A DNA stretch of 64,000 bases from an uncultured Prevotellaceae bacterium (GTDB lineage: Bacteria; Bacteroidota; Bacteroidia; Bacteroidales; Bacteroidaceae): NCBI GenBank assembly GCA_900318555.1, contig ONKX01000005.1, forward strand, positions 1-64,000. The letters are read 5' to 3'. Shown in pieces: positions 3,959 to 50,224 of this stretch. Each line of letters opens with the position of its first letter. The stretch's first letter is position 1. Below the pieces are notes generated by a model that was not told the origin of the DNA, did not search any database, and was given only the letters and a program-made list of their open reading frames with translations. The translations under genes were made by a program, and so were the position numbers.

Positions 3959-6382
3959 ATGAAGAAGTTTTTAGTGATGGCAGCATTTGTTGCGACAGTT
4001 GCAGCGAATGCACAAAACACAAAGGCACTGTATGACTCGACTGAGGTAGAGCATCTGCAAGAGGTAGTAGTGAAAGGCGTGCGGGCGCAAAAGAATGCAC
4101 CGTTTGCCGTAACAAACATCAAGAAGGCCGAGTTGGGCGTTTTTTCGAAAACAGGACAGGAACTGCCCTTCCTATTCTCGCAGTCGCCGGGTGTGATGGC
4201 ATGGGGCGAGAGCGGTCTGGGCATCGGTACGACACACATGCGCATTCGCGGTGCCGGCGACTCACGCATCAACGTGACGCTGGACGGCGTGCCCTTGAAT
4301 TCACCGGAAGACCAGTGCGTGTTCTGGGCCAACATGAACTCCTACGCATCGCTGCTGGGTTCCGCGCAGATACAGCGCGGCGTAGGTTCGTCAACCAATG
4401 GTGACGGAGCCTTCGGCGGAACGGTAGCACTGGCCAGTGCCACACCTTCACAGACGCCCACACTGGAACTGTCGGCATCGTATGGTTCGCTGAACACCTA
4501 CAACGTGGGCGGCAAGTTATCGACAGGACTACTATGGAACCACCTCATCCTGGATGGTGCCTACCACACCACAGGCACCGACGGCTATCTGCACGGCACC
4601 AGTGCCCGCAGCGGCTCATACTATGGTGGTCTGACCTATCTGGCGTCAGACAAACTGGTTGTCCGATACAAGAACATCGGCAACTTCGAGCGTACGGGTC
4701 AGGCATGGAATGGTGTGACGGCAGGTAACAACGACTATAGTCTGATGGACGGCTGTTACGACGACGGCTCTTGGACGTACAGCACAGCAACGGGTATCAA
4801 GAGCTACGACGACCTGCGTAGTGTCGGTTTGGGCAAATTTAACTCACTCTACGAGCGTCTGGTTACCGACGAGAACGGTCTTTTCGTTCGGGATGCTGAT
4901 GGCAACTATCAGACGGAACGCTATCAGTTTGCCGATGGCACGCTGTGGGACAAGACCACCGACAACTTCTGGCAGAATCACAACATCCTGTCTGCGGCTT
5001 GGGACATCAACGAGCACTGGTCCACTTCGGCCTCGCTGCACTATACCTACGGCTACGGCTACTATGAGGAGTTCCGCTACAAGAACAAACTGGCGAAATA
5101 CGGACTGGAGAACTTCATCGACAGCAATGGCAAGAAGCATAAGAAGATGGACTTTGTGCGTAAAAAAGGACTGGAACAGCACACCTATGGTCTCGTGTGG
5201 AATGCCAACTACAAGGACGACAGTTGGGACGTCATCGGCGGACTGTCCGTGCAGAACTACGACGGCTACCACTTCGGATATCTGACATACATCGAGAACA
5301 GCGAGCTGAGCAACCTGCTGCTTCAGGACGGCAGATACAAGTACTACGACTCGCCAGCCCACAAGCAGGACGGCAACATCTTCCTGAAGGCGGCCTATAA
5401 TATTAACAAGGAGTGGACAGTCTTTGCCGACGTGCAATACCGCCACGTAGGTTTCCAGACCAGCGGCTATAACGACAAGTATTATACCGACGACAATGGC
5501 GTCATCCACAAGCACATGCTCGACATTGACAAACACTACCACTTCTTCAATCCCAAGGCAGGATTCTCGTGGCATAGTGGTCCGCATCGCGTCTATGGTT
5601 CTGTGGCCATCAGCCATCGTGAACCGGAGCGTAACAATTTTACGGATAACGGCTCCTACCCTGCCCCCAATGCCGAGAAACTGACGGATTACGAGTTAGG
5701 ATACACGCTGAATGCCGACAATTGGCGCTTTGGCATCAATGGCTACTACATGAACTACACCGACCAGTTCGTACAGACGGGAGAGGTAACGGAAATTGGC
5801 GAGAACCTGACCACCAACATCAAGGACTCCTACCGTCTGGGCGTGGAATTGCAGGCAGGTGTTGATGTGACCAATTGGCTCACCATCGAGGGTAACGCAG
5901 CCTTTAGCAAGAACCGCATCAAGGATTTCGATGAGAAGGTGCAGGTGGACTGGGGCGACTTCGAGACCATCCATTACGACAATTCGACGTTGGCATTCTC
6001 GCCATCGACACTGCTCAACGGTTTCGTTAACTTCCACTGGCGAGGTATCCAGGCCACGTGGCACACCAACTTCGTTTCGCGCCAGTATCTTGACAACACC
6101 GAGTGCAAGGACCGCTCGCTGCCGTCGTTCAGCGTTTCGAACGTAAACATCAGCTATACGCTGAAAAGTTCAACGTTCAATGTTCAACGTTCAACGTTCT
6201 TCAAGGAGGCTGTCGTCGGACTGTCGCTGAACAACGTCTTCGACCGTCACTATGTCGCAGGCGGCTGGGTTTACTCGGCTATCCTCAGCGGTTCACACCC
6301 CAACGACAACCGCTACTACCAGATTGGATACATGCCGTCAGCCGGCTTCACCATGATGGGCAACATTACGCTTCGCTTTTGA
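3959..6382 (+). CDS. TonB-dependent outer-membrane receptor, probably for thiamine
   Basis: This 807-residue receptor has a signal peptide (MKKFLVMAAFVATVAANAQ), a plug domain with a TonB-box-like EVVVKGVR segment and the typical RIRGAG / VTLDGVPLN plug motifs, then a long aromatic-rich beta-barrel ending in Phe. The TPP riboswitch directly upstream and the PnuC-type permease directly downstream identify thiamine or a derivative as the likely substrate. Near residues 737-748 the barrel contains an in-frame array of the heptamer GTTCAAC (6168-6200). The stop codon lies inside a second heptamer array (TGACCTT-like) that fills the spacer to the next gene. Confidence 0.88.
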   Translation: MKKFLVMAAFVATVAANAQNTKALYDSTEVEHLQEVVVKGVRAQKNAPFAVTNIKKAELGVFSKTGQELPFLFSQSPGVMAWGESGLGIGTTHMRIRGAGDSRINVTLDGVPLNSPEDQCVFWANMNSYASLLGSAQIQRGVGSSTNGDGAFGGTVALASATPSQTPTLELSASYGSLNTYNVGGKLSTGLLWNHLILDGAYHTTGTDGYLHGTSARSGSYYGGLTYLASDKLVVRYKNIGNFERTGQAWNGVTAGNNDYSLMDGCYDDGSWTYSTATGIKSYDDLRSVGLGKFNSLYERLVTDENGLFVRDADGNYQTERYQFADGTLWDKTTDNFWQNHNILSAAWDINEHWSTSASLHYTYGYGYYEEFRYKNKLAKYGLENFIDSNGKKHKKMDFVRKKGLEQHTYGLVWNANYKDDSWDVIGGLSVQNYDGYHFGYLTYIENSELSNLLLQDGRYKYYDSPAHKQDGNIFLKAAYNINKEWTVFADVQYRHVGFQTSGYNDKYYTDDNGVIHKHMLDIDKHYHFFNPKAGFSWHSGPHRVYGSVAISHREPERNNFTDNGSYPAPNAEKLTDYELGYTLNADNWRFGINGYYMNYTDQFVQTGEVTEIGENLTTNIKDSYRLGVELQAGVDVTNWLTIEGNAAFSKNRIKDFDEKVQVDWGDFETIHYDNSTLAFSPSTLLNGFVNFHWRGIQATWHTNFVSRQYLDNTECKDRSLPSFSVSNVNISYTLKSSTFNVQRSTFFKEAVVGLSLNNVFDRHYVAGGWVYSAILSGSHPNDNRYYQIGYMPSAGFTMMGNITLRF
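6168..6200 (+). repeat. Heptamer array GTTCAAC inside the receptor gene
   Basis: Four to five tandem copies of GTTCAAC, with single-base variation, lie in frame and encode a Ser/Thr/Phe/Asn-rich stretch (STFNVQRSTF) in the barrel region. Period 7; no stop in the gene frame. Confidence 0.85.
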
Positions 6383-6416
6383 CCTTTGACTTTTGACCTT
6401 CGACCTTTGACTTTTA
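6380..6416 (+). repeat. Heptamer array TGACCTT/TGACTTT between receptor and permease genes
   Basis: About five copies of a TGACYTT heptamer begin at the receptor stop codon and run to 6 bases before the permease ATG. Because the period is 7, a TGA appears in every reading frame. Confidence 0.8.
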
Positions 6417-6422
6417 AACATT

Positions 6423-7025
6423 ATGGCAGATTTCTTGCAATCTCACTGGCTCGACCTCTTTACCACGATACTCGGACTGATATATATCTGGCTCGAGTAT
6501 CGTGCTCATATCGCCCTGTGGGTGGTAGGCGTCGTGATGCCGGCATTGGATGTCTGGCTATACTGGAGTCACGGACTCTACGGCGACGCGGGCATGGCGT
6601 GCTACTATACCTTTGCAGCAGTTTACGGCTTCTATGTGTGGAAGTTTAAGAAGACGCGCAAGAAACACGAATCGCTACCCATCATCTTCATGCCGCGCGA
6701 CAAGTACCTGCCCGCCATTGTGTTCTTCCTTGCGGCATGGGGAGCCACCTATTACGTCTTAGTGACGTGGACCAATTCTACCGTACCCGTGCTCGACTCG
6801 TTCACCAACGCCCTCTCGATAGTCGCCCTCTGGGCACTGGCACGGAAATTCGTCGAGCAATGGCTGTTTTGGATTGTCGTCGATGCGGTGTGCTGTGGGC
6901 TTTACATCAATAAAGGCATTCCCTTCAAGGCACTGCTCTACGGTCTTTATGTCGCCATCGCCATTGCCGGTTATTACAAGTGGAAGTCGCAGGCGAAAAC
7001 CGTCAAGCGAGATCAAAAAAAGTAG
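6423..7025 (+). CDS. pnuT: PnuC-family permease, probable thiamine transporter PnuT
   Basis: This 200-residue protein has about seven hydrophobic segments and the small size of the PnuC vitamin facilitator family. Family members take up nicotinamide riboside, riboflavin or thiamine by facilitated diffusion, with phosphorylation trapping the substrate inside. The short spacing to the riboswitch-controlled receptor gene makes thiamine the likely substrate, and hence the PnuT subgroup; the assignment rests on context more than on residues. No thiamine pyrophosphokinase gene follows here, although such operons often include one. The C-terminus is basic, consistent with positive-inside topology. 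Confidence 0.82.
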   Translation: MADFLQSHWLDLFTTILGLIYIWLEYRAHIALWVVGVVMPALDVWLYWSHGLYGDAGMACYYTFAAVYGFYVWKFKKTRKKHESLPIIFMPRDKYLPAIVFFLAAWGATYYVLVTWTNSTVPVLDSFTNALSIVALWALARKFVEQWLFWIVVDAVCCGLYINKGIPFKALLYGLYVAIAIAGYYKWKSQAKTVKRDQKK

Positions 7026-7043
7026 AAAATATTTTGTATTTTC

Positions 7044-8438: not shown

Positions 8439-9740
8439 ATGAGACGATTCGCAATACTCTTTGCCCTCCTCCAATTGTCAATTTTCAATTGTCAATTATC
8501 AATTGTTGCCCAGCCCGTGATGGAAATTATCCGGCAACACCCTGCCTATTCCTCGTGCAACTACGACATCTATCCCGATAGCGTTCCCAACAATCTGACT
8601 CCTGCACCAGCAGGCAAGAAGCCGTTCTACATCTCCCACTACGGTCGTCACGGTTCACGATACATCAGCAACCGCACGGGCTACGAAACGCCCTACAATA
8701 TGATGCTGCAAGCCGAGAAGGTCGACGAGCTCACACCTACTGGCAAGAAAGTGTTGCAGGAGATGAAAACCATCATGGGCGATGCCGAGGACCGCTGGGG
8801 CGAACTGACCTACATCGGAGCCCAGCAGCACCGCCAGATAGCCCGTCACATGATTGAGCGTTTCCCAGAAGTGTTCGAGGGTGCCGCCAATGTCAGTGCC
8901 CGTAGCACCATCGTTCCCCGCTGCATGGTATCGATGAGCTATGCCCTCATGGAACTGGCTCAGATTAATCCCCAACTGCACATCACCATGGAGTCTACCA
9001 AGCGCACACAGCACTACATGAATTTCCAGGATCCCGTGTTGCGCAAGGGCTATATGACCCCCGAAGCCCGCAAGGCATATGACGCCTACGTCGCTCCACG
9101 AACGGGTAACAGCCGTCTGATGGAGATGATATTCAAGAATCCCGACATCGTCAAGGAAATCGTTGACGAGACATTCTTCAACTACTACCTTATGAAGATG
9201 GGACTCTTCATCCTCAATACCCACATGAAGACCGAGACCTTCCTGCTGAGTCTCTTCCAGACCGAAGAACTCTACCGCATGTGGCAGATTGACAACGCTC
9301 TCTGGTACATCCAGCACGGAGCCTGCAAACTCAATGGTGGTCGGCAACCCTACACTCAGCGCCACCTCCTGCGACAACTTATTGCCGACGCTGACAGCTG
9401 CATACTCCTCGACCGTCCAGGAGCTCAACTGCGCTTCGGCCACGAGACCGTCATCCTGCCACTGGTATGTCTCATCGGCATCAATGGCTACGACCTCTCC
9501 ACCGGCAACCTTGACGAACTTGAAAAGCGCGGTTGGTGGTGCTCGAGCGTCTTCCCCATGGGCGCCAACGTACAGTTCATCTTCTACCGCAGCAGTCCCA
9601 AGGACAAAGATGTCCTCGTCAAAGTCCTCCTCAACGAACAGGAAGCCAGGCTCCCCGTCCCTACCCATTCCGCTCCCTACTACCGTTGGGCCGACGTCCG
9701 CCGCTACTGTCTGAACAAACTCGAACAGTATAAAGAATGA
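8439..9740 (+). CDS. Secreted clade-2 histidine acid phosphatase
   Basis: This 433-residue protein has the histidine-phosphatase signature HYGRHGSRY (RHGSR at 70-74, nucleophile His71), a further conserved Arg in SARST, and the distal GHET motif (334-337) carrying the second His and the proton donor. It should remove phosphate from small phosphorylated compounds (phytase, glucose-phosphatase or inositol-polyphosphatase type) in the periplasm. The ATG at 8439 is preferred over upstream starts inside the preceding gene because it begins a clean signal peptide (MRRFAILFALLQLSIFNC...). Much of that signal peptide is encoded by a heptamer array (8472-8506). It shows clear homology to its upstream neighbour. 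Confidence 0.87.
   Translation: MRRFAILFALLQLSIFNCQLSIVAQPVMEIIRQHPAYSSCNYDIYPDSVPNNLTPAPAGKKPFYISHYGRHGSRYISNRTGYETPYNMMLQAEKVDELTPTGKKVLQEMKTIMGDAEDRWGELTYIGAQQHRQIARHMIERFPEVFEGAANVSARSTIVPRCMVSMSYALMELAQINPQLHITMESTKRTQHYMNFQDPVLRKGYMTPEARKAYDAYVAPRTGNSRLMEMIFKNPDIVKEIVDETFFNYYLMKMGLFILNTHMKTETFLLSLFQTEELYRMWQIDNALWYIQHGACKLNGGRQPYTQRHLLRQLIADADSCILLDRPGAQLRFGHETVILPLVCLIGINGYDLSTGNLDELEKRGWWCSSVFPMGANVQFIFYRSSPKDKDVLVKVLLNEQEARLPVPTHSAPYYRWADVRRYCLNKLEQYKE
8472..8506 (+). repeat. Heptamer array CAATTGT in a signal-peptide region
   Basis: Five exact 7-base steps of CAATTGT/CAATTTT/CAATTAT encode the hydrophobic stretch QLSIFNCQLSIV of the phosphatase leader. A related array lies at 25844-25872. 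Confidence 0.88.
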
Positions 9741-12550: not shown

Positions 12551-14359
12551 ATGAATATTGAAGCATTGATTAGCAAGGCAGCAGGTGAGGCCGTGAAGGC
12601 ACTCTATGGCATGGACCCCAACGAAAAAATGCTGCAGTTGCAGAAGACAAGAAGTGAGTTTGAGGGTAACTTGACATTAGTGGTTTTCCCGTTCGTTAAG
12701 GCGGCTAAGAAGAGCCCTGAGCAGACGGCACAGGAGATTGGCGAGTATCTGGTTGCCAACTGTACCGCTATCAGTAAGTTTAACGTCGTCAAGGGATTCC
12801 TGAACCTGAGTATTGGCGAGGGCGCATGGCTCTCATTGCTGCAGGCTATGGATCAGGACGACCGCTTCGGCATGAAACCTGTGCACGAGGATTCTCCCCT
12901 CGTGATGATTGAATATTCTTCCCCCAACACCAACAAGCCCCTGCACCTGGGTCATGTGCGCAACAACCTGCTGGGTTGGTCGCTGGCTCAGATTATGGAG
13001 GCCAACGGCAACAAGGTGGTGAAGACAAATATCGTAAACGACCGCGGTATTCATATCTGTAAGTCGATGCTGGCTTGGCTGAAGTACGGCAACGGCGAGA
13101 CGCCCGAATCATCTGGCAAGAAGGGCGACCACCTCATCGGTGATTACTACGTGGCCTTCGACAAGCACTACCGCGAGGAGGTGAAAGAACTGACCGCCCA
13201 GTTTGTGGCCAGCGGTTTACCTGCTGAGCAGGCTGAGGAGAAGGCCAAGCAGGAGGCTCCGCTCATCAAGGAGGCTCACGAAATGCTGGTGAAATGGGAG
13301 CAAAACGATCCTGAAGTGCGCGCCCTGTGGGAGAAGATGAACAACTGGGTGTATGCCGGTTTCGACGAGACCTACAAGAAGATGGGCGTTTCCTTCGACA
13401 AGATATATTACGAGAGTCAGACTTACCTGAAGGGTAAGGCTAAGGTGGAGGAAGGACTGGCCAAGGGTCTGTTTGAGCGCCACGAGGACAACAGCGTGTG
13501 GGCCGACCTGACCAACGAAGGCCTCGACCAGAAACTGCTGCTCCGCTCCGACGGCACCTCAGTATATATGACGCAAGACATCGGTACTGCCGAGATGCGT
13601 TTCCAGGACTACCCCATCGACAAGATGATTTACGTCGTAGGCAACGAGCAGAACTACCACTTCCAGGTGCTCTCTATCCTGCTGGACCGTCTGGGCTTCA
13701 AGTGGGGCAAGGAATTGGTTCACTTCTCTTATGGTATGGTGGAACTGCCCAACGGTAAAATGAAGAGCCGTGAGGGAACGGTGGTGGATGCCGACGACCT
13801 GATGGCGCTGATGGTAGAGGATGCCTATAAGACCTCTATGGAATTGGGCAAATTCGACGATATGACCGAAGAGGAGCGTCGCGAGATTGCCCGTATCGTG
13901 GGTATGGGTGCCCTGAAGTACTTTATCCTGAAGGTTGACGCACGCAAAAATATGCTGTTCAACCCCGAGGAGAGTATCGACTTCAACGGCAACACCGGTC
14001 CTTTCATTCAGTACACCTACGCCCGTATCCGCTCCATTCTCCGCAAGGCCGAGGGAACGAACTATTCTCTCACCTCTCACCTCTCACCTCTAACCTCTAA
14101 AGAGGTTGAGCTCATTCAGAAGATGTCTGAGTTTGGTACTGCCGTCGAGCAGGCCGGCAAAGACTATAGCCCCAGTGGCATTGCCAACTACTGCTACGAA
14201 CTGACGAAGGTGTTCAACCAGTTCTATCACGACTTCAGCATCCTCAACGAGCCCGACGAGCAGAAGAAGGCCGTCCGCCTGATGATAGCCAAGAACGTGG
14301 CCAAGATTATCAAGAACGGCATGGGACTCCTCGGCATCGAGGTTCCCGAGCGCATGTAA
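12551..14359 (+). CDS. argS: Arginyl-tRNA synthetase
   Basis: This 602-residue class I synthetase charges tRNA-Arg. It has the N-terminal Add-1 domain, the HIGH-type motif HLGHV (132-136) after SSPNTNKP, and the degenerate KMSKS region KMKSREG (about 403-409) typical of ArgS. The C-terminal anticodon-binding domain ends IKNGMGLLGIEVPERM. Around residues 506-517 an in-frame heptamer array (14067-14100) encodes LTSHLSPLTSK, at the start of the anticodon-binding domain between conserved ARIRSILRK and VELIQKM segments. The same peptide word occurs in ribD. Confidence 0.97.
   Translation: MNIEALISKAAGEAVKALYGMDPNEKMLQLQKTRSEFEGNLTLVVFPFVKAAKKSPEQTAQEIGEYLVANCTAISKFNVVKGFLNLSIGEGAWLSLLQAMDQDDRFGMKPVHEDSPLVMIEYSSPNTNKPLHLGHVRNNLLGWSLAQIMEANGNKVVKTNIVNDRGIHICKSMLAWLKYGNGETPESSGKKGDHLIGDYYVAFDKHYREEVKELTAQFVASGLPAEQAEEKAKQEAPLIKEAHEMLVKWEQNDPEVRALWEKMNNWVYAGFDETYKKMGVSFDKIYYESQTYLKGKAKVEEGLAKGLFERHEDNSVWADLTNEGLDQKLLLRSDGTSVYMTQDIGTAEMRFQDYPIDKMIYVVGNEQNYHFQVLSILLDRLGFKWGKELVHFSYGMVELPNGKMKSREGTVVDADDLMALMVEDAYKTSMELGKFDDMTEEERREIARIVGMGALKYFILKVDARKNMLFNPEESIDFNGNTGPFIQYTYARIRSILRKAEGTNYSLTSHLSPLTSKEVELIQKMSEFGTAVEQAGKDYSPSGIANYCYELTKVFNQFYHDFSILNEPDEQKKAVRLMIAKNVAKIIKNGMGLLGIEVPERM
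14067..14100 (+). repeat. Heptamer array CTCACCT inside argS
   Basis: About five 7-base steps of CTCACCT/CTAACCT are read in frame as LTSHLSPLTS. The reverse-strand equivalent sits in ribD at 22321-22354. Confidence 0.88.
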
Positions 14360-14368: not shown

Positions 14369-14487
14369 CGGACTATACGGACTGATACGGACTTAATTGT
14401 TCCACCTCATAAAAAGTCCGTAATAGTCCGTTAAGTCCGATGCAAACAAAACAGAAGTCCGTAATAGTCCGTTAAGTCCGATGCAAA
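14369..14487 (+). repeat. AGTCCG word array with a perfect 33-bp direct repeat
   Basis: Between argS and the RNase H gene, 33 identical bases occur at 14414-14446 and 14455-14487, each made of AGTCCG words about 9-10 bases apart. Upstream, CGGACT words (14369-14393) form an imperfect inverted repeat with the first copy that could fold behind argS. TAA and TAG triplets are frequent. The second copy contains the ATG at 14481. Confidence 0.8.
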
Positions 14488-20306: not shown

Positions 20307-20400
20307 TTTCTATACTTTGGTGCAAAGATAAGAACAATTTCCCAATCCACCAAATTATTTGCCATCATTTATAAAAACTATAATGATATATAGCGATACG

Positions 20401-20560
20401 CTCTCTCTTAATCGGTTTGTTGAACTATGTTCGAGAAACCTCACGCTCGGCAAAGTGAGCAAGTTCCCTTTGCTCTCGCTTAATCGGTTTGTTGAATTGT
20501 CATTCGACAAAACTCTCCTTCGGCATAGCTCAAACAAGTTTGGCTCTGCTCTCTCTTAAT
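20401..20560 (-). repeat. About 73-bp imperfect tandem repeats at the 3' end of the Fic gene
   Basis: CTCTCGCTTAATCGGTTTGTTGAA-like cores (here split: CTCTCNCTTAATCGG then TTTGTTGAA) occur at about 20401, 20473 and 20547, each followed by CTCGGCA or TTCGGCATAG arms and GCTCT. The third core supplies the last codons and the stop of the Fic gene. Confidence 0.7.
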
Positions 20561-21431
20561 CGTTTTGTTCATAATAGTAGGAATAGTCGATACCTTTCAT
20601 GAAGATTTCGCGGTCGTCAATGCGGTCTGTCATTGCTCCTTGGAGCAACGATTTGATGGCACGGGCATCTGTCGTGCTTTGCTTCATTGCAGATAAATAC
20701 GCTTTCTTGTCTATCTTACTCCAATCAACACAAAGTTTCAGGCGCGCCTTGAAGATAAGGTCCAGCCAAATGCGTGTTGAGCGCCCATTGCCCTCCATAA
20801 AGGGATGGGCTACGTTCATCTCTACATATTTATTGACAATCTCATCGAAAGTGGTCTCTGCCATACCTTCAATCATTCTCAAATTTTGCATCAGATATTC
20901 TGCACGACAGAACAAGGTACCATCTTTCCAAATGGTCTTGGTGCGTATCTGACCTGCAAAATCATATAGACCACCAAAAATATATGCATGAATTTGTTGC
21001 AGGCACTCAACGGTTCCCGGCTTCATACTGTCGAGCAAGCCGCTCTCGACAAGCGTGTAGGCCTTTTTCTTACTCTGCCCATCAATGCTGTTGTCGCTAT
21101 ATGTGAACCAGTGGAGAAACGAACGGGCACGATTATTGGGATAGTTTTCCGCCAAAGTCTGAACACAATCGCTATCCAATGCATCAGCAAAGCGCTGTTT
21201 ACCATCTGGAGCCTCGAATTTGAAGTGGTTAGTGACACTAACCAGTTGAATGCCATCCTTAACAAACTTTCCTTTCAGGTACTTCCAATAGTTTCGAGAT
21301 TTCTTATAATCCTCCTCATCGTTGATGGCGCGTACGATGTCAGTAGCCGAGAACCACCACTTGCTGTGTTCCTCGTCCCAGACTGCACGTACTTCGCGGT
21401 CGTTGAAAAAGCGGATTGATTTCTTGCTCAT
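20556..21431 (-). CDS. BRO-N/Fic domain fusion protein
   Basis: This 291-residue protein has an N-terminal segment (about 5-105, FFNDREVRAVWDEEHSKWWF...SATDIVRA) that resembles the BRO-N/antirepressor domain of phage proteins. A Fic domain follows, starting near QQIHAYIFGGLYDFAGQIR, with an intact catalytic motif HPFMEGNGRSTR (209-220). Fic enzymes usually transfer AMP from ATP to Ser/Thr/Tyr of target proteins; His209 and the GNGR anion hole are all present. I do not see a confident inhibitory (S/T)xxxE(G/N) helix or a separate antitoxin gene. It lies in an accessory segment beside a pseudogene and repeats, with a TATATTTG promoter box at 21451-21458. Confidence 0.85.
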   Translation of the reverse strand: MSKKSIRFFNDREVRAVWDEEHSKWWFSATDIVRAINDEEDYKKSRNYWKYLKGKFVKDGIQLVSVTNHFKFEAPDGKQRFADALDSDCVQTLAENYPNNRARSFLHWFTYSDNSIDGQSKKKAYTLVESGLLDSMKPGTVECLQQIHAYIFGGLYDFAGQIRTKTIWKDGTLFCRAEYLMQNLRMIEGMAETTFDEIVNKYVEMNVAHPFMEGNGRSTRIWLDLIFKARLKLCVDWSKIDKKAYLSAMKQSTTDARAIKSLLQGAMTDRIDDREIFMKGIDYSYYYEQND

Positions 21432-25803: not shown

Positions 25804-25843
25804 CCGTGTGCAATCGGTTGCACACTACTGTCGCCACGAAACT

Positions 25844-25872
25844 GTTAATTGTCAATTGTCAATTATCAATTA
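25844..25872 (+). repeat. Heptamer array GTCAATT in front of the amylase promoter
   Basis: Four 7-base steps of GTTAATT/GTCAATT/ATCAATT, the same word family as the phosphatase signal-peptide array. The array covers the position of the -33 box of the next promoter. Confidence 0.83.
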
Positions 25873-31377: not shown

Positions 31378-31382
31378 GTTTT

Positions 31383-31454
31383 CGTTATTGCGTTATGTCG
31401 TTATTCCGTTATGTCGTTATTCCGTTATTACGTTATTACGTTATTACGTGATTC
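31383..31454 (-). repeat. Octamer array CGTAATAA filling the porV-ispF spacer
   Basis: Nine consecutive 8-base units (CGTAATAA, CGGAATAA, CGACATAA variants in the gene direction) run from 4 bases after the porV stop to the ispF start. TAA occurs in every frame. It matches arrays before rpoN and purE. Confidence 0.9.
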
Positions 31455-31458
31455 CGAT

Positions 31459-32631: not shown

Positions 32632-35600
32632 TTATTTATGAGTTATAACTATCAATTTCTTAGCTTTCGAAGCATAGCTGCTGCCGTCACTGGCTATACG
32701 CAACCGATAGAGGTAAACACCCGTTTGCAGACGACGTCCGCCATCCACCGTCAGATCCCAGTCTACAGAATAGCTGTTATCTGCAGGAATGCCGTTCTCT
32801 GTATACGACCACAGATGACGTCCGGAAATGTCAAACACGTCCAAAATAATATCCATATTACTACCCGTCCTGTCATGCAGGATGCGGAACGATGTCGTTG
32901 TCGTGGCTGGATTCTTCGTTGCCTCAACGTCGAAGAACAACGGTTCCAGACCTTTTACGACCTTGAATGTAAGTTCTGCCGTCGACGAGTTATTCAGTAT
33001 GTCCCAAGCACGGAACAGCAATTTATGTTCTCCATACGACAGTTCGGGAATGCTATAGCCTATCGTTCCCGTAGTATAGCTGCCAAAGTCGTACTTGAAA
33101 TAATCGTTCAACGAATAAGTCTTCGTCATGTCACCGTCGATAATCAGCTCCAGGTCATGACCGATGCCGCTACCTGCCGCATTGATGCCATCCTCGTCGT
33201 TCAGCTGAGCGACGAAGTAAGGCGTCGGATTGACGCTACCACCATTGACAAACGACTCACTATTCAGATAACAATAGATGTTAGGTCCCGCTCCATCGTG
33301 TGGAAGCGGTCCCGAACCGCTCATCTTCACCTGATCGCAAATACCGCTGGCCTCCATAGTCTTATCGTTGCTGACGGCATAGAGGTTGATGAGTCCGTTT
33401 GCATCGGAATAGCTGATATCCTTAGGAACAGCAAAAGTCAGCGTGAATCGTCCGTCCTTCACCGCATTATTACCATTGAAGAGCACGTTCTGACGGTCGT
33501 AGTACACAAAGGGATCTTCAGCCTCCGTTGGGTCATTCAACTTACAAACCACCCGTTCGAGCGCATCTCGCACTATCGTCGTCAGCGTGCCATTAAATCC
33601 AATAGCGGGCTGTCCGTCCTCTTCCAGGATATGTCCACTGATGGTTGCTGTCGATCCTGCATTCAGAATCTGCGTCTGACTATCCGTTAAAGGCACATGG
33701 TTGATGGAATCAATCCGGATACTCATCGTTGGCGCTGCCAGTCTCATAGCAGGGTCGCCCAATAACGTATATTGCAGCTTGTTCTGCGTGCGGTCAGTGG
33801 AGTAAACAGGATTCCCGTTCACATATCCGGTGATGATACCAGTTTCTATGAGTTCGTTCTTTGCCCGTCGTACAGCTTCACCGATGGGGAGTAGCTGTGC
33901 GTTGTCGTCCTGACTTAGCACATGACGGGTAAATGCCAGGTTCATCAGTCGGTTCTGAGTCTGATATACTGTACGTGTCGTACCATAGAACGCCACAGCA
34001 CCGCCTTTCTTGTTAAAGAATGCCGTCTCACCGATATTCTCTTCTTGTCCGTCAAAAGGCATAATGTCACAAGAGGCCGTCAACCACAAAGGCAGTCGCG
34101 GCGACACATTCTCGAAATCGGCCAAACGCAGCACATATTCATGTGAAATAGCGTCGGCACGCCCGTGTCCAGCATAATTCATCATCAGCGCACCTTGCTG
34201 CATCTGCTGTTTGATGAGTCGCGTCACGTCAGGATAACTGTTTCCCGTCGAAGAACTGACACGGGTGTAGGCATCCCACATGACACGCTTTACCTGATAA
34301 GCCGGATAGAGTTGTTCCACCATCCGTGCGACGCTATCGGCATCCTGCATGTGGGCATTCTCATTACCATCGTCACCCATAAAGCAAAGCAGGTTTTGCC
34401 AAGCACCGGCATTATCGTTGTTGACATAGCTTTCTATTTTATCTACCACGCCAGCGGCATCGTCAGCCGTTCGTGCAGAGATACGTCCTACTGCCACATC
34501 AGCCTTTGCCGTCAGCATATTGCCTCCTTCGCCGTCGTCCATCAGACAGAAATAGTCGTCCGTTACATAGCAATCAGTGGCACTCGACGAGTTCTCGCTC
34601 TCATAGCAGAGCAGGAAATCGTCAGGTGAATAGCCTTTCCATTCCGCACTGGCCATACGGTTGTCCCATGCACCATCACCCATCAGCAACAAATAACGCG
34701 GCATATCTGCATCTGTCCCTGCGCGGTCGTAAAGCATCTTCAGGTAACGGCGATAGGCATTGGCATCCGGAGTTCCGCTGGAAAACTCGTTGAACAGTTC
34801 GTCAGCAGGAACGATAGTAACCCTCAAGCCGTCCTCCTGCTCATGCATTGTCTTCAGACGTTCTGCCTGTGCCTTGAGTTTTTGCGTCGTAGGAATGATA
34901 ATGACCATATCTGCAAATGCATCGGCATGGTGGTCCTGATTCGTGATGTTATAGACATATTCCGGAACGGGGAATGTAGCAGACAAGTCTGGAGCTGCAG
35001 CGGGTTCATTGGCATGTAGGGAAATATAGTCCAATCGCACCGTAGCGCTGCCAGAGAGATTCTTGATAGTCACCTTGTTAGATGTCTGCAGGTTATGAAC
35101 GGCCTTCATACTCATCGCCTGACGCATCTTTTCATAACTGCCGTGCGCCGTGATTGTGACGGAATCCAGAGGAACATCATTCAGGCTGATAGACACCTTT
35201 GCGGCATCATCCGCCGTCACCACCGTTGTCATCTGTCCTTCAGCGCCTGTTCCTTTTGTCGCAATGGTAAAAGTATGGCTTCCGCCTGCTCCTATCGCCG
35301 TCGCATCATACAAGTTACGACCTCCATGGAACCAGGCGAAGTCGTCAACCTCATACAAGGAGTTATAGTCGTCCGCCAAAGGATAATACTTTTCCTTGAA
35401 TTCCGCTTCACTCATAGTCAGCGCAGTACTGTCGTTTTCCGTCAGGAAATAATAGCCATAGTTCGAATACGGATTACGAATACGTTTATGGCTGGCATCC
35501 CAAGTGACTGGTCCAATGGCATAGAACAGTTTCCGTCCTCCGACCTCACACGTCGGTACTTCCATCAGATCGTCGGTTTCTGCCAGATAGGTGGCCGTCA

Positions 35601-36195
35601 GCGTCTCGGGCTGCATTCCACCGCCATAACCATAGATCTTGACCTTATTGATATCCGAGAAACCAGCCTTTTTGATCAAATCAGTGGTTACTTGATAGAT
35701 ACCCGTCGACGGCACAGCGATTTTTGCCCATTTGCCCGTTGCCAACACAGAATGATCAGCATAACGCTGCGTTGCAGCCCTTTTACCTCTGACCACTGAC
35801 TTCTGACCCCTGACATCCAGCATAAAACTTACTAGTTTCTGGAATCGGCCATCACGGAATACCAGCGGAATAAACGAGACTGTCAATTCTCCCTGTTTCC
35901 TATCTACGCTAATGACCTGCGATACCTCAGGCATGGCGGGCAGAGACTTCGACATAATCTTTTCACAGCGTTCGATGTCGGCCTCACTCATCGGAATAAA
36001 TTCTGGATAGACAATGGAAACAGTATAGACGGAGTCGGCATAGTCCGGTCCCAGCGGCACATGATGGGTGAATACCGGCAACAACGAATCAATCCTGACC
36101 TGCTCAGCAGTCAGGTTGAAAAATCGTTGCTGTGCTTTGGCCGTCAGGCTCATCAGCAACAATCCTATACCTATTATATATATAAAGCGTCTCAC
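32632..36195 (-). CDS. porU: T9SS C-terminal signal peptidase/sortase PorU
   Basis: This 1187-residue protein has a signal peptide (MRRFIYIIGIGLLLMSLTAKA), N-terminal beta domains, a gingipain-like C25 peptidase domain with the catalytic dyad His677 (NYAGHG) and Cys709 (LTASCD), and a C-terminal Ig-like plus sorting-type domain. PorU cleaves the C-terminal signal of T9SS cargo at the cell surface and attaches the protein to lipopolysaccharide. The start codon is GTG at 36193-36195 and overlaps the stop of the upstream gene (GTGA). A heptamer array (35784-35816) encodes the in-frame insert GQKSVVRGK in the N-terminal part. Confidence 0.95.
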   Translation of the reverse strand: MRRFIYIIGIGLLLMSLTAKAQQRFFNLTAEQVRIDSLLPVFTHHVPLGPDYADSVYTVSIVYPEFIPMSEADIERCEKIMSKSLPAMPEVSQVISVDRKQGELTVSFIPLVFRDGRFQKLVSFMLDVRGQKSVVRGKRAATQRYADHSVLATGKWAKIAVPSTGIYQVTTDLIKKAGFSDINKVKIYGYGGGMQPETLTATYLAETDDLMEVPTCEVGGRKLFYAIGPVTWDASHKRIRNPYSNYGYYFLTENDSTALTMSEAEFKEKYYPLADDYNSLYEVDDFAWFHGGRNLYDATAIGAGGSHTFTIATKGTGAEGQMTTVVTADDAAKVSISLNDVPLDSVTITAHGSYEKMRQAMSMKAVHNLQTSNKVTIKNLSGSATVRLDYISLHANEPAAAPDLSATFPVPEYVYNITNQDHHADAFADMVIIIPTTQKLKAQAERLKTMHEQEDGLRVTIVPADELFNEFSSGTPDANAYRRYLKMLYDRAGTDADMPRYLLLMGDGAWDNRMASAEWKGYSPDDFLLCYESENSSSATDCYVTDDYFCLMDDGEGGNMLTAKADVAVGRISARTADDAAGVVDKIESYVNNDNAGAWQNLLCFMGDDGNENAHMQDADSVARMVEQLYPAYQVKRVMWDAYTRVSSSTGNSYPDVTRLIKQQMQQGALMMNYAGHGRADAISHEYVLRLADFENVSPRLPLWLTASCDIMPFDGQEENIGETAFFNKKGGAVAFYGTTRTVYQTQNRLMNLAFTRHVLSQDDNAQLLPIGEAVRRAKNELIETGIITGYVNGNPVYSTDRTQNKLQYTLLGDPAMRLAAPTMSIRIDSINHVPLTDSQTQILNAGSTATISGHILEEDGQPAIGFNGTLTTIVRDALERVVCKLNDPTEAEDPFVYYDRQNVLFNGNNAVKDGRFTLTFAVPKDISYSDANGLINLYAVSNDKTMEASGICDQVKMSGSGPLPHDGAGPNIYCYLNSESFVNGGSVNPTPYFVAQLNDEDGINAAGSGIGHDLELIIDGDMTKTYSLNDYFKYDFGSYTTGTIGYSIPELSYGEHKLLFRAWDILNNSSTAELTFKVVKGLEPLFFDVEATKNPATTTTSFRILHDRTGSNMDIILDVFDISGRHLWSYTENGIPADNSYSVDWDLTVDGGRRLQTGVYLYRLRIASDGSSYASKAKKLIVITHK
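35784..35816 (-). repeat. Heptamer array GTCAGNN inside porU
   Basis: Four to five 7-base steps of GTCAGGG/GTCAGAA/GTCAGTG/GTCAGAG in the gene direction encode DVRGQKSVVRGKR, with no stop in the gene frame. Confidence 0.82.
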
Positions 36196-36865: not shown

Positions 36866-37849
36866 ATGAAGAAAATAACGTTTATCATCCTCCTGTTGGT
36901 AGCAGTACTGACCGTTTCTGCACAGCCACAGGGCGACCCACGAAGCATCTCTTTGATGGGTATTCCCATCGAAGGACCTATCGACTCGCTGCGACAGACG
37001 CTGGCAGAAGCCCAGTTTGCAGAATGGGGACAGTCCGACGATGGCGAAGACTATTATTTCCGTGGCAATTTCTACGGTTTCCGCTCGAAGCTGATGGTCA
37101 GCGTGGCTCCTGAGACGAAATTCGCCACGTCGGCCTACATCACTATCGGTCCTTATAGCACACAGAAAATGTTAGACAAGAACCTGCAGTATTTCCTTTA
37201 TAAGTTAGAAAAGGATCACGGAAAATTCACGCAGCGTGACGACAGCTGGTTCTACATCGACGATTTCGGCAGCATCAAACTCTCTATCATCGACAATGAC
37301 AACGGTTCCCACGACATCCGCGTGCTGTATCTTGGTTCCACTCCTTATTATAAGGATGCCCTTTCCATGGGACTGCGTGGCGATGTTCAGGAGGTCGTGA
37401 CGGAGAATGCCGTCGCTGAAGACCAGTTCATGCACTTCCACGGAAATGGCCAGATAGAGAATCTCGACCTTATCGACCGCGAATATAACCGCTATGGTTA
37501 TCTGCTTCGGGCACGTATGAAGGAACAGGAGGGTTTCAGCTCAATTACCTATGCCTACGACGACAGCTACCGCCTCGTCAAACGTACGCTGACCAACGAA
37601 GAGGCTGGCATCAGCTATGTCAACGACTACACATACAACGACCAGGACGAGGTGTTGACGCAGAATCAGAAAGTGTTCGACAAAAGTGGCGAGTGCATCA
37701 TGACCATCAATATGCGCAACAACTACATCACACGCGACGACAACGGCAATTGGACCAGCAACTCGCTCAGTCTGACCTATTGGGAAAAAGGTTCGAAGAC
37801 TCAGAATACTACCGTCCTACAACGGCGGACACTTGCCTATTGGGAGTGA
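36866..37849 (+). CDS. Secreted protein of unknown function
   Basis: This 327-residue protein has a signal peptide (MKKITFIILLLVAVLTVSAQ) and then a soluble domain with repeated beta strands (YYFRGNFYGFRSKLMVSV, NRYGYLLRARMKEQ, YDDSYRLVKRTL, YVNDYTYNDQDEVLTQ). The second half, with YxYDxxxRLVKR-type elements, recalls YD-repeat-like or MORN-like beta meanders, but I do not recognise a family. The ATG at 36866 is chosen because it starts the signal peptide and lies just after the promoter. The downstream octamer array leads into rpoN. Confidence 0.83.
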   Translation: MKKITFIILLLVAVLTVSAQPQGDPRSISLMGIPIEGPIDSLRQTLAEAQFAEWGQSDDGEDYYFRGNFYGFRSKLMVSVAPETKFATSAYITIGPYSTQKMLDKNLQYFLYKLEKDHGKFTQRDDSWFYIDDFGSIKLSIIDNDNGSHDIRVLYLGSTPYYKDALSMGLRGDVQEVVTENAVAEDQFMHFHGNGQIENLDLIDREYNRYGYLLRARMKEQEGFSSITYAYDDSYRLVKRTLTNEEAGISYVNDYTYNDQDEVLTQNQKVFDKSGECIMTINMRNNYITRDDNGNWTSNSLSLTYWEKGSKTQNTTVLQRRTLAYWE

Positions 37850-37876
37850 CGTAATGTCGTAATAACGTAATAACGA
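37850..37876 (+). repeat. Octamer array CGTAATAA before rpoN
   Basis: Three to four 8-base units (CGTAATGT, CGTAATAA, CGTAATAA, CGAAAA) fill the spacer between the preceding stop and the rpoN ATG, ending AACGAAAAA-ATG. Confidence 0.87.
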
Positions 37877-37880
37877 AAAA

Positions 37881-39374
37881 ATGGCACAGGGACAGATACA
37901 GGAACAGCGGCTCACGCAGCAACAGAAACTGACGCAGAGCATTACGCAGCAACAGTTGTTGCAGGCGCAACTCACTGAGTTGCCCATTACCCAACTGCTG
38001 GAACGTATCAAGACCGAGATGGACGACAACCCTGCGCTGGAACTCTCCCCAGAAGAAAATCTAGATAATCTAGATCCTCTAGAAAATCTAGACACCCCCA
38101 AAAACGACACCGACGACTACGAACAGGAGGAGCGCCAATCTGCTCTGGATGCTGCCTTGGAGTCTATTGGTCGCGACGACGAGGACCTGCCGGTCTATCA
38201 AGGCGGCCAGTCCAATCAGGAGGATCGCGAGGAAATGGTCTATGGCCAGACGGAATCGTTTATGGATCAGCTGAACGAACAGATGAACATGGCCAACATC
38301 ACCGAACGCCAGCGCGACATCATGGAATATCTCATTGGTTCGTTGGACGATGACGGACTGCTGCGCAAGTCGCTAGATAACATCAGCGACGAACTGGCCA
38401 TCTATCACCATCTCGACGCTACGACGCACGAAATAGAACAAGTACTGCTGCTGTTACAAGAGTTTGACCCTGCCGGCATCGGAGCACGTTCGCTGCAGGA
38501 ATGTCTGTTGCTGCAGATTCAACGGCGCGACCCGTCCCGTCTGAGAGACCTCATGGAGAAAACCATCAGCGAATATTTTGAGCTTTTCACCAAGAAACAC
38601 TGGCAACGCCTGCAACAGGTGCTGAAACTGAGTGACCTGCAGGCAGAGACGCTCATTGCTGAACTACGCAAGTTGAATCCGAAACCCGGTTCTTCCATCA
38701 GTGAAACAGTCGGACGTTCCCTGCAACAGATTACCCCTGATTTCATCATCGATACTCACGACGACGGCACGGTGACCTTCTCACTGAATGCTGCCGAAGT
38801 GCCGGAACTATGCGTCTCGCCGTCGTTCACCGACACGCTGCGCGACTATCAGGACAACAAGGAACACCTCAGTCGCCAGATGACGGAGGCTTTGGTGTAT
38901 ACGAAGAAGAAGGTCGAAGCCGCTCAGGGTTTCATCGATGCTATCCAGGTGCGTCGCCACACGCTGACCGTTACCATGCGGGCCATCATCCAGTGGCAGC
39001 ACCGTTTCTTCGAGGATGGCGACGAGGCCTCGTTGCGCCCGATGATACTGAAAGACATTGCCGAACGTACGGGACTGGACATCAGTACCATCTCACGCGT
39101 CAGCAATTCGAAATACGCCCAGACACGCTGGGGTACATTCCCCTTGCGCCATTTCTTCAGCGACGGTTATACGACAGCTGATGGTGAGGAACTCTCGACG
39201 CGTGAAATCAAAGCCGCCCTTCAGGAACTCGTCGAAGGGGAAGACAAGCGCAAGCCTCTGAGCGACGAGACACTTAAAGACCTGTTGGCCGAGAAAGGCT
39301 ATCCCATAGCCCGTCGTACCGTATCGAAATATCGCGAACAACTGGGCATCCCAGTAGCAAGACTAAGAAAATGA
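37881..39374 (+). CDS. rpoN: RNA polymerase sigma-54 factor
   Basis: This 497-residue protein has the Gln-rich N-terminal activator-interacting region (QEQRLTQQQKLTQSITQQQLLQAQL), the core-binding domain, the helix-turn-helix region and the RpoN box ARRTVSKYRE near the C-terminus, which reads the -24 promoter element. Sigma-54 promoters need AAA+ activators, none of which is encoded here. Around residues 59-71 an in-frame nonamer array (38055-38092, ATCTAGATA-like) encodes ENLDNLDPLENLD in the acidic linker. The start follows an octamer array. Confidence 0.96.
   Translation: MAQGQIQEQRLTQQQKLTQSITQQQLLQAQLTELPITQLLERIKTEMDDNPALELSPEENLDNLDPLENLDTPKNDTDDYEQEERQSALDAALESIGRDDEDLPVYQGGQSNQEDREEMVYGQTESFMDQLNEQMNMANITERQRDIMEYLIGSLDDDGLLRKSLDNISDELAIYHHLDATTHEIEQVLLLLQEFDPAGIGARSLQECLLLQIQRRDPSRLRDLMEKTISEYFELFTKKHWQRLQQVLKLSDLQAETLIAELRKLNPKPGSSISETVGRSLQQITPDFIIDTHDDGTVTFSLNAAEVPELCVSPSFTDTLRDYQDNKEHLSRQMTEALVYTKKKVEAAQGFIDAIQVRRHTLTVTMRAIIQWQHRFFEDGDEASLRPMILKDIAERTGLDISTISRVSNSKYAQTRWGTFPLRHFFSDGYTTADGEELSTREIKAALQELVEGEDKRKPLSDETLKDLLAEKGYPIARRTVSKYREQLGIPVARLRK
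38055..38092 (+). repeat. Nonamer array ATCTAGATA inside rpoN
   Basis: Four 9-base steps of ATCTAGATA/ATCTAGATC/CTCTAGAAA. The period is a multiple of three, giving a three-residue repeat N-L-D. CTAG is usually a rare tetranucleotide in bacteria. Confidence 0.87.
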
Positions 39375-39995: not shown

Positions 39996-40056
39996 TCGTA
40001 ATAACGGAATAACGAAATCACGGAATAACGATATAACGATATAACGAAATAACGAA
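39996..40056 (+). repeat. Octamer array CGTAATAA before purE
   Basis: Seven to eight 8-base units (CGTAATAA, CGGAATAA, CGAAATCA, CGATATAA variants) fill the spacer between the PAP2-like gene and purE, ending AACGAAAAAAAT-ATG. Confidence 0.9.
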
Positions 40057-40062
40057 AAAAAT

Positions 40063-42083: not shown

Positions 42084-42167
42084 GTTAAAACTGCGTCGGC
42101 GGACGTTAAAACTGCGTCGATGAATGATAAAACTGCGACAATGGATGACAAAACAGCGTCGCAGTTT
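42084..42167. repeat. Four tandem 21-bp repeats between convergent ispG and acyltransferase genes
   Basis: Four consecutive 21-base units beginning GTTAAAACTGCGTCG (GATAAAA and GACAAAA in later copies) run to the 3' end of the minus-strand gene. 21 is three heptamers, so this may be a higher-order form of the 7-base arrays. Confidence 0.87.
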
Positions 42168-48732: not shown

Positions 48733-48792
48733 GTTGCAAATTGTTTTGGTTTGACTTATTATAATAATTTAAATATTAAACAGTTTTGCTTG

Positions 48793-48824: not shown

Positions 48825-48841
48825 TAATTCGCTAAAAAACA

Positions 48842-50224
48842 TTAATTTTGGAAGTCTGGAGCGACAGAAAGGTGCATATTTATGCCTGTAACAGGATGAT
48901 GAAACCAAATTTCTGCTGCATGAAGCATCAGTCGCTGACCTTTTTCGCGGGTGCCGTAAAGCTCGTCACCAACAATGGGACGACCCAAACCGTCGGGGTG
49001 GGCACAATGGATGCGCAGTTGGTGGGTGCGACCGGTCTGAGGCCATAATGCCACGAGGCTATCTGACAGGAATTCATAATCTGTAACGGCGCGTTTACCG
49101 TGCTCGGGATCCACAAGCTGTCGCGGACGGTTCATCGGGTCCGGCCGCAGGGGCAAACTGATGGTGCCACGTTTATCTAGAATATCTAGTTTTTCTAGAG
49201 CATCTAGAGATTCTAGAACCGCTAGATATTTTTTCTTCACCTGGTGTTTCACGAACTGCTCCTGTAAGTTACGATAGACCTCCAGCGTTTTCGCCACGAT
49301 GAGCAGACCGCTGGTAGCCATATCCAAGCGGTGGGCAATCATACTACCAGGATAACGCTCCTGCATAATGGTTTCAACGCTATATTCTTCTACGCGGCCC
49401 GGCGCGGAGAGCAATCCACTGGGTTTGTTGACCACCAGCAACCATTCATCCTCATAGACAACGGGCAGTTCCTGACGTTCGAAAGCCAGCGACTCCGGGT
49501 CGGGATCAACATCGAGCCCTTGCAGCATCCACGTCAGGACGGGTTTGCACTTGCCCCTGCAGGCTGGATAATAATTCAGATGATGGCGAAGCTCTGTCTT
49601 CGTCGTCTCGCCCCACCAGAATTCCGCCATACACAGCGGCTTCAAGCCCTGCTGATAGGCATATTGCAACAGTTTAGGCGCACAACAGTCACCAGTCCCT
49701 CCCGGAGGCAGCGGATATTTACGCAACAGTTTCGGACGGTTGTAATATTCCTGCCAAATATCAATAAGATCCTTCACCTCCCCACGAGCATTCAACAGCC
49801 GATATTGGTGGAAGAGCCAAGTCTGCAGCTCCTGTGAGAGCTGCTTAGAGCTAAAGTCACTAGAATCCCTAGACGATCTAGATGATCTAGATATTCTAGA
49901 GATCTCCCTTTCCTGCGTCTTGAAATACCCATCAGGCTGTTGCGCGTCGAAGATGGGCGGTACGAAATACGGCCAGTCGTTCCGTCCTGCCAACAGCCCG
50001 CTATAGGCTGCCAAAAAGCCCTGCTGCCCTGGCGACATCTCCACCACCAACACTCCAAACATTTTTCCTTTATCTGCATCCTCTAGAATCTCCTCATGAC
50101 TAGCAATATAGGCCTGCACCGCCTTAGCAGCCAATTGGCACAAAGGGTGCGGCTCGTAAGCGAAGGGATAGGTAAACCGCTTTGGCGGTGCTATCCTGCT
50201 CTCTAACGGATGCACATATTTCAT
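48842..50224 (-). CDS. RluA-family RNA pseudouridine synthase with Bacteroidetes N-terminal extension
   Basis: The C-terminal half (about 255-460) is a pseudouridine synthase with HRLDMATSGL (298-304, catalytic Asp301), VVNKPSGLLSAPG and the QTGRTHQLRIH motif. It should convert uridines in rRNA or tRNA. The first 250 residues form an extension with GGTGDCCAPKLL and ACRGKCKP cysteine motifs found in a Bacteroidetes subgroup. Two in-frame CTAG-rich nonamer arrays (49175-49229 and 49859-49903) encode LDALEKLDILDK-like and ISRISRSSRSSRDSSD stretches in loops. A TATCTTCG box lies at 50234-50241. Confidence 0.9.
   Translation of the reverse strand: MKYVHPLESRIAPPKRFTYPFAYEPHPLCQLAAKAVQAYIASHEEILEDADKGKMFGVLVVEMSPGQQGFLAAYSGLLAGRNDWPYFVPPIFDAQQPDGYFKTQEREISRISRSSRSSRDSSDFSSKQLSQELQTWLFHQYRLLNARGEVKDLIDIWQEYYNRPKLLRKYPLPPGGTGDCCAPKLLQYAYQQGLKPLCMAEFWWGETTKTELRHHLNYYPACRGKCKPVLTWMLQGLDVDPDPESLAFERQELPVVYEDEWLLVVNKPSGLLSAPGRVEEYSVETIMQERYPGSMIAHRLDMATSGLLIVAKTLEVYRNLQEQFVKHQVKKKYLAVLESLDALEKLDILDKRGTISLPLRPDPMNRPRQLVDPEHGKRAVTDYEFLSDSLVALWPQTGRTHQLRIHCAHPDGLGRPIVGDELYGTREKGQRLMLHAAEIWFHHPVTGINMHLSVAPDFQN
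49175..49229 (-). repeat. Nonamer array (TCTAGA words) in the synthase domain
   Basis: Six 9-base steps, each carrying CTAG, encode a leucine/acid repeat (residues about 337-351) between two conserved strands of the pseudouridine synthase. Confidence 0.87.
49859..49903 (-). repeat. Nonamer array (TCTAGA words) in the N-terminal extension
   Basis: Five 9-base steps with CTAG encode a Ser/Arg-rich peptide (residues about 107-123). It is the same word as in rpoN and in the other array of this gene. Confidence 0.87.

Follow-up and report, generated by a model that had tools for sequence, protein, structure and literature searches.

How does a bacterial genome come to hold short tandem arrays, built from the same few words, both inside its genes and in the spacers between them? 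The question is raised by a stretch of 64,000 nucleotides from an uncultured Prevotellaceae bacterium, here called the window (positions 1 to 64,000 of contig ONKX01000005.1, GenBank assembly GCA_900318555.1). The original prediction had listed at least 16 arrays in the window, with periods of 7, 8 or 9 bases. Tandem Repeats Finder and direct reading verified all of their coordinates, and the words said to recur at distant loci were found as described. Most of the periods also stood, although the array at 14369 proved to have a period of 9-10 and to be one arm of an inverted set, and those at 27599 and 35788 scored best at 14. We lean slightly toward the explanation that genome-specific words of seven, eight or nine bases are multiplied by slippage, copied by template switching and kept where the sequence is free.

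The genome was sampled as 39 stretches of the assembly (3.26 Mb, 131 contigs) together with the window, 680,696 bases in all, of which 671,172 unmasked bases (about 0.67 Mb) were scored for self-match at each shift. Periods 7, 8 and 9 yielded 93, 50 and 22 arrays, the period-8 count being biased upward because 25 of the 39 stretches had been picked for holding a period-8 match, while periods 7 and 9 were not selection criteria. An order-5 Markov simulation of equal size gave 0, 0 and 0 arrays at these periods and single arrays at three others, so that the excess over composition-matched sequence on which the original prediction depended is present. Every other period within 3-11 had at most six arrays; period 12 had 16, and the 67 at period 14 are largely a harmonic of 7. 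Stricter scoring retained 67, 24 and 8 arrays at periods 7, 8 and 9. The genome thus has what characterizes long simple repeats, namely units of 5-11 nt beyond chance with heptamers commonest (93/50/22 versus 0/0/0). Likewise, 80 rpoN loci of named records held 50, 38 and 16 arrays at periods 7, 8 and 9, with none in three runs of an order-4 Markov null, and two copies of CGTAATAA (up to two mismatches) matched 68 times in the genome versus 4 for the backwards control. Chance or composition as the cause is ruled out by the Markov and backwards-pattern controls, and an assembly artefact of the metagenome bin is unlikely, as period-7 to -9 arrays are present in many other genomes.

The relatives named below by number are cultured and uncultured Prevotella and Prevotellaceae, many of them ruminant-derived; their genomes and the array surveys were sampled in part, with one genome per species. 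Among seven rpoN loci taken as isolate-derived, three have a period-7, -8 or -9 array and four have none. Congeners sampled at 40-60 kb held one such array (G307), two (G129) or none (G016, G262, G024), and the last three samples indicate that the arrays are not universal in the genus.

The words are built from a near-fixed core of about six bases and one to three freer bases, and few families account for most arrays of the genome. At period 7 these are TTGAACR, AGANGTN, AATTGWC and ATTGAMC, with 25 of the 93 arrays outside the four by our own classing; at period 8, CGNNATAA, AAAARGTA and GTCACRAA-type words; at period 9, TCTAGANNN, alongside protein repeats and single words. In a set of 27 TTGAACN arrays, constancy at the six core positions is 88-96%, and the seventh letter is A (50%) or G (46%). 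The 43 CGNNATAA arrays vary most at positions 3 and 4; in the 21 TCTAGANNN arrays, which were each counted on both strands, the last three positions are occupied by any of the four bases. As AGANGTN has two variable positions, "six plus N" is a tendency and no law. Elsewhere in the sample, about ten TCTAGA-type units make up a 96-bp array of period 9 near the 3' end of a called gene (L032 893-988).

Every genome has its own vocabulary of such words. Three copies of TTGAACR (TTGAACRTTGAACRTTGAAC, up to one mismatch) or of TCTAGANNN were searched in 120 same-genus genomes and two copies of CGTAATAA in 60, with a further 80 genomes at the order level; controls were the same patterns read backwards, and the match numbers differ from array counts because matches overlap within one array. 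The TTGAACR pattern matched 213 times in this genome. It was matched in 55 of the 120 genomes, this one included, with other genomes reaching 176, and had no match in 65; its backwards control gave 0 or 1 per genome, except for 11 in G008. The TCTAGANNN pattern was matched in 41 of the 120 genomes, at 94 places here and at 209 in G009, which has no TTGAACR match, and its control gave 0-2 per genome, except for 8 in G009 and 9 in G115. Conversely, G040 had 126 TTGAACR and no TCTAGA matches. Three copies of CCTACYNNN matched 46 times in G093 (control 5) versus 0-5 times in seven other genomes (control 1-4). The CGTAATAA pair at one mismatch was present in 21 of 60 genomes, including this one. 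At the order level TTGAACR was matched in 5 of 80 genomes, again including this one. The 41 TTGAACR matches in G071, from another family of the order, indicate that this word is abundant beyond the genus as well.

The same sites in relatives vary in unit number, presence and word, and the period is kept at the period-9 sites. The original prediction had suggested comparing orthologous loci for such differences, and relatives without the array or with another word were found for argS, rpoN, ribD and a pseudouridine-synthase gene. The hypervariable linker of argS (14067-14100, plus strand) contains period-7 CTCTCAC here, a ACTAGTNNN-type array in G007, whose ArgS is 97% identical, and CTCAACT in G008. 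The spacer upstream of rpoN is filled by a period-8 CGTAATAA array (37847-37881, plus strand), which stands between stop and ATG in four genomes. In G274, whose RpoN is 96% identical, the ATG begins one base past the stop codon and the array is absent, as it is in G093, G086 and G033, so that it is most likely an insertion. In this spacer, words of the TCAATGG, AAGAGGT or CATAATK type were read by eye in three other species. Six relatives (loci L101, L102, L106, L107, L111 and L116) carry TTTGTAANTTTGCA just ahead of rpoN, a sequence that resembles a promoter -7 box of the Bacteroidota kind; here, the array-filled spacer follows the upstream gene.

The pseudouridine-synthase gene carries two period-9 TCTAGANNN arrays on the minus strand, read as L-D/E-x at 49171-49230 and, in another frame, as S-R-x at 49851-49905. 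Both sites have TCTAGANNN in G261 and G306 as well and CCTACYNNN-type words in G093, while G086 has other period-9 words, with a ACTAGTNNN-type word at the 49851 site. Hence two sites in a single gene swapped their word without a change of period, and in G093 the same new word is found at both. The spacer upstream of an AIR-carboxylase (PurE-like) gene is filled by a period-8 CGNNATAA array (39996-40060, plus strand), with CGNNATAA-type units in five of six readable relatives and CCCTAAY-type words in G093. G306 and G093 also have the period-7 array within ribD (22320-22352, minus strand, sense CTCTCAC), G086 has a reduced form of it and G261 lacks it, and the linker of a PrmC-like methyltransferase (24281-24317, plus strand) is written with period-7 ACATCTT here and with a CTCATTT-type word in G093. 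At the period-8 CGNNATAA array filling the spacer upstream of ispF (31380-31456, minus strand), the unit number varies among relatives; copy-number change was observed at the species level only.

One and the same gene reads TCTAGA as L-D/E at one site and as S-R at the other, so what is repeated is the DNA. Selection for three-residue protein repeats as the general cause of period 9 is refuted by this two-frame reading and by intergenic period-9 arrays. It holds in part for the acidic linker of RpoN, where a period-9 TCTAGANNN array (38054-38092, plus strand) encodes NLDNLDPLENLD and the S-E-x or P-E-x repeats of relatives are written in mixed codons.

If the unit is DNA, where do the arrays settle? 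Outside the window genes were called with a purpose-written, simple codon-usage caller, so that gene starts there are uncertain. Period-8 arrays had been placed between genes only, which by our gene calls is true of 46 of 49 and untrue of 3; period-7 arrays occur in both settings, as had been said (35 in genes, 58 between); the confinement of period 9 to genes did not hold (14 in genes, 7 between). In four genomes, arrays lie in 119 of 477 spacers no longer than 600 nt that separate co-directional genes, and in 18 of 190 other spacers. Of 38 CGNNATAA arrays between co-directional genes, 36 are in the sense orientation and 27 have both the upstream stop and the downstream start no more than 15 nt away; the sense strand of the word is stop-rich because it contains TAA. 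Among 178 co-directional spacers before an ATG in this genome, 34 have two or more CG..ATA units, the case at 14369 being in fact another word. Their A-content climbs from about 0.46 at -40 to 0.6-0.7 close to the start codon, and that of the other 144 from 0.37 to 0.41-0.53. Of 87 arrays inside genes, 27 fall within the first 120 nt, where about 10% would be expected from length. Several of these 5' arrays likely encode the cores of signal peptides, such as LPFYLFTFLLLF from TTTTTACC words; in the window, a period-7 CAATTNT array (8472-8506, plus strand) in a histidine-phosphatase-family gene (likely start 8439) is the hydrophobic core of a likely signal peptide, MRRFAILFALLQLSIFNCQLSIVAQP.

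The fixed orientation and place of the period-8 arrays beside start codons could be taken to mean that the words are bound by a protein that recognizes DNA or RNA, with a specificity that varies between species, and that selection, not copying, keeps the cores alike. A conserved core with a drifting spacer would agree with this, and a similar role has been proposed for the TAACTGA repeats, as the available part of that report describes (PMC4679880). However, like words stand, in both orientations and in more than one frame, in the linkers of ArgS, RpoN, RibD and a pseudouridine synthase, and the sharing of spacer letters described below would be left unexplained. We therefore consider binding sites quite unlikely to be the answer.

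Arrays also come in inverted pairs. Directly ahead of the RNase H-like gene at 14481, the window has CGGACT copies at 14369, 14378 and 14388 and AGTCCG copies at 14415, 14425, 14434, 14456, 14466 and 14475 (the set spanning 14369-14480). Among pairs of equal period up to 600 bp apart in eleven genomes, 20 were reverse complements, 5 direct and 21 different, and 110 further loci gave 6 inverted, 1 direct and 7 different pairs within 400 bp. Template-switch mutations would explain the inverted partners, because such errors write reverse-complement copies (Monttinen and Loytynoja 2022, PMC8794818, as far as its available text goes). A reverse-complement copy near its presumed source, which may be either arm, is what we find, both in the 20 inverted versus 5 direct pairs and in the permutations for gldN that follow.

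The gldN set consisted of the best 30 loci from the 115 genomes with a match, of 120 searched, and four loci were dropped as their spacer, as anchored, was shorter than 12 nt. In 8 of the 30 orthologues (Pfam GldN), the spacer array and the array encoding the signal peptide are reverse complementary, with species-specific words; as G093 and G086 are close relatives, the eight cases are not fully independent. Computed pairing of the spacer with the signal-peptide code averaged -16.7 kcal/mol for own partners versus -12.7 kcal/mol for permuted partners. None of 20000 permutations was as low; the own partner was the best one in seven cases and the second best in the eighth. Near gldN in G086, two neighbouring genes have a nearly identical start region with inverted AATGAAG/CATTCTT arrays (L174 14380-14544 and 18442-18606), which looks like local duplication or conversion; the counterpart in G093 lies at L167 12539-12703.

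Such pairing around start codons raises the possibility of an RNA hairpin that controls the translation of exported proteins, the remaining arrays being a by-product. Twelve of the 19 inverted pairs up to 400 bp apart have one arm in the first codons of a gene that starts either between the two arms or at the border of the second, and the gldN arms covary. By family and by our own signal-peptide reading, eight of the nine scanned genes with an arm in the first codons look exported (GldN, Omp85, an outer-membrane efflux protein, M23 and M28 peptidases, and others). Yet the ninth, QueH, is not exported, the other 7 of the 19 pairs are arranged differently, one being wholly intragenic with a 16-base gap, and most arrays have no detected partner, which makes the hairpin very doubtful as the general cause.

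Nor do the inverted arms behave as ends of mobile elements, which is ruled out for most pairs, their interior being the starts of different genes. The common internal sequence expected of miniature inverted-repeat transposable elements was not seen, as most interiors differ between genes by eye. The "mobile" in the original prediction, in the sense of a transposable element, is accordingly not borne out, since the sequence between the arms varies by gene, though no search was aimed at array-linked mobile genes. Two inverted GTGACWTT/AAWGTCAC pairs (L010 412-677 and L047 19480-19670) enclose different AT-rich, TATATA-rich stretches and are possibly a distinct element of this genome.

Do words also travel between unrelated genes? 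In G093, four CCTACYNNN loci lie in genes that we read as a four-helix-bundle protein, a lipoprotein signal peptide, the pseudouridine synthase and a UvrA-like protein. Blastn matched them to each other at the array only, with no match in the remaining flanks, and the best match between loci extended over 70 bp at 93% (E 2e-25). In one hand-picked pair, 30 of 35 non-core letters are alike (8 of 100000). As this pair and the four loci had been chosen for looking alike, a test over 19 arrays of G093 is fairer: six unit pairs were shared, versus 1.27 when units were dealt randomly (43 of 20000), and one unit triplet, versus 0.013 (261 of 20000). In the genome studied here, a similar test was positive for the CGNNATAA and TTGAACR arrays (0 of 200 shuffles each), a result open to other causes. 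The inverted partners and the array-only identity in G093 point to copying. The claim of an organised and copying system thus found support in the genome-specific words, the word swaps at orthologous sites, the inverted complementary partners and the array-only identity.

Genome-specific, near-fixed-core words at many unrelated places are also what a dedicated enzyme might leave, for instance a reverse transcriptase that writes words from a short RNA template in the fashion of telomerase. With several words of different period in one genome, such an enzyme would require several templates, and we regard it as highly improbable.

In the explanation that we favour, tandem units would be produced by slippage, which would account for changes in unit number. 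Slippage also fits arrays that begin at a stop codon, because a duplication across the stop does no damage to the upstream gene. Template switching during replication or repair would write the reverse-complement copies, giving rise to inverted partners and to joint changes of word, and a switch to a distant template would spread a word through the genome and so build its vocabulary. Selection would then retain arrays where any sequence serves, subject to reading frame, stop codons and translation start. The outcome of this filter would be stop-rich, A-rich sense arrays between operon genes and stop-free arrays in linkers and signal peptides.

Several observations weigh against this explanation. 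No copying event was caught in the act, with one genome sampled per species. The rule that the stop-rich strand of period-7 arrays is the sense strand is obeyed in this genome (28 to 9, one tie) and fails in G093 (5 sense, 7 antisense, 2 ties) and in G007 (3 to 3). Start-adjacent placement in one orientation, as seen for the period-8 CGNNATAA arrays, is not general for period 7. Within-array shuffling in G093 gave weaker results (268 of 20000 for pairs, 3869 of 20000 for triplets). The shared order of CGNNATAA units is also explicable by the A-rich gradient toward the start codon and that of TTGAACR units by A/G alternation (165 of 5000 shuffles), and for the TCTAGANNN arrays of this genome the sharing of letters does not clearly exceed chance (it was reached in 2 and 4 of 40 shuffles). 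G115 gave its nine backwards-control matches with none to the TCTAGANNN pattern itself. At gldN, two loci (L217 and L223) have array-like signal peptides that do not pair best with their own spacer, and L216, one of the four dropped loci, has such a signal peptide and no spacer. Furthermore, the rpoN site of the relative without the array contains a local seed, AATAAC, and several gldN spacer arrays begin at the stop codon of the upstream gene, which we read as gldM; for some arrays, local birth by slippage with no copying in trans therefore fits.

Carried through, these last points become ordinary microsatellite turnover, in which all arrays would be born locally by slippage and their likeness would come from composition and stop-codon context. 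Besides the seeds at rpoN and gldN, the varying unit number of the 31380 array between close relatives speaks for it, and so does the common over-representation of heptamers in bacteria, as stated in the part of the literature at hand (PMC4679880). It is already strained, however, by word counts that range from 0 to 213 within one genus with backwards controls near zero and by the free letters common to arrays of unrelated G093 genes; nor would it lead one to expect a word common to both arms of inverted pairs. We think it unlikely that turnover of this kind is the whole explanation.

The remaining arrays of the window are as follows. A period-7 TTGAACR array (6168-6199, minus strand; GTTCAAY on the plus strand) in the TonB-receptor-like gene 3959-6382 encodes residues 737-747, SSTFNVQRSTF, and a period-7 TTTGACY array (6378-6415, plus strand) lies between that gene and the NMN-transporter gene 6423-7025. 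The alpha-amylase-family gene is associated with two arrays on the plus strand: period-7 AATTGTC at 25843-25871, likely ahead of the true start and adjoining TATCTTTG, which we take to be a -7 promoter motif, and AGATGKC with period 7/14 at 27599-27638, close to the 3' end. Another period-7/14 array (35784-35818, minus strand) lies in the C25-peptidase gene 32632-36195. A period-9 array at 62569-62642, encoding collagen-like (GKD)n in a very large protein, is an ordinary protein repeat and unlike the word arrays. Longer units were observed as well. A 72-bp tandem repeat of 2.3 copies holding GGTTTGTTGAACT (20400-20569) has about one copy fewer in G261. Between two convergent genes, a 21-bp tandem repeat (42086-42161) is kept in G274 and G086 and diverged in G093, and G261, G306 and G033 carry other sequence with CTCCAAGAG in its place.

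Are such arrays new? As a kind, they belong with known dispersed heptamer repeats. Cyanobacterial STRR sequences, for example, are dispersed families of tandem heptamers known from intergenic DNA. The statement that no description was known is too strong, for dispersed heptamer tandem repeats are already in print (PMC4679880, PMC4692102). The comparisons that follow are with the parts of the cited reports that were available. In many bacteria, heptamers outnumber all other long simple repeats (Mrazek 2007, as cited in PMC4679880), and the TAACTGA repeats of Beggiatoaceae precede start codons in one orientation (MacGregor 2015, PMC4679880). The latter resemble our arrays in being short heptamer sets, many per genome, mostly just upstream of starts, with a stop-rich sense strand and a patchy distribution across species that includes five Bacteroidetes. 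They differ in that one word dominates and related heptamers are rarely repeated, whereas here there are several words per genome and three periods, the words at a site differ by species, and arrays form linkers, signal peptides and inverted partners.

The GGGNATC heptamers of Xanthomonas, which vary between close relatives, and of Nostoc share with our arrays the many intergenic loci, the variation in length and sequence, and some inverted repeats; unlike ours, they are a single G-rich word type, thought to form quadruplexes, and the text available reports no periods 8 or 9 and no orthologous word swap (PMC4692102). Borg tandem repeats are likewise fast-evolving, occur in spacers and genes and make disordered regions from in-frame units, but they are perfect copies with units of 18-21 nt in the examples given and independent origins, and no shared vocabulary is reported in the part at hand (PMC9879509). 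Template-switch mutations have in common the reverse-complement copies and the stems that stay paired, but are described there for RNA-gene stems and not for tandem word arrays or a genome vocabulary (PMC8794818). Prokaryote satellite families are also multi-site tandem families, and some abundant bacterial ones derive from hexamers or heptamers. They differ in that transposed non-coding families, with long repeats, were seen in two species only, the short ones being held to be locally born, and genome-wide spread of non-coding satellite families is held to be rare (PMC6749651, in its available sections). What sets our arrays apart from these kin is the combination of several words with three periods, species vocabularies, word swaps, inverted partners and the use in signal peptides and linkers. 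Among the results listed by searches of the open-licence literature, we found no report of such arrays in Prevotella or of signal peptides made of repeats, and neither a multi-period vocabulary nor word swaps or inverted partners in print.

It has long been asked how new protein linkers, signal peptides and operon spacers originate. In the present case, a single process appears to draw all three from a small stock of DNA words specific to the genome. Housekeeping genes such as argS, rpoN, ribD and gldN are included, and the vocabulary turns over between close species. Because cultured isolates are among the carriers, it can be tested directly how short repeats are born, copied and rewritten. 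In a bolder form, which we advance only tentatively, each genome would have a heritable vocabulary of words that is actively copied, in tandem and inverted arrays, into spacers, linkers and signal peptides. The words of a species would then resemble a dialect, sites would be rewritten with their period kept, and the arrays would provide material for new signal peptides and linkers.

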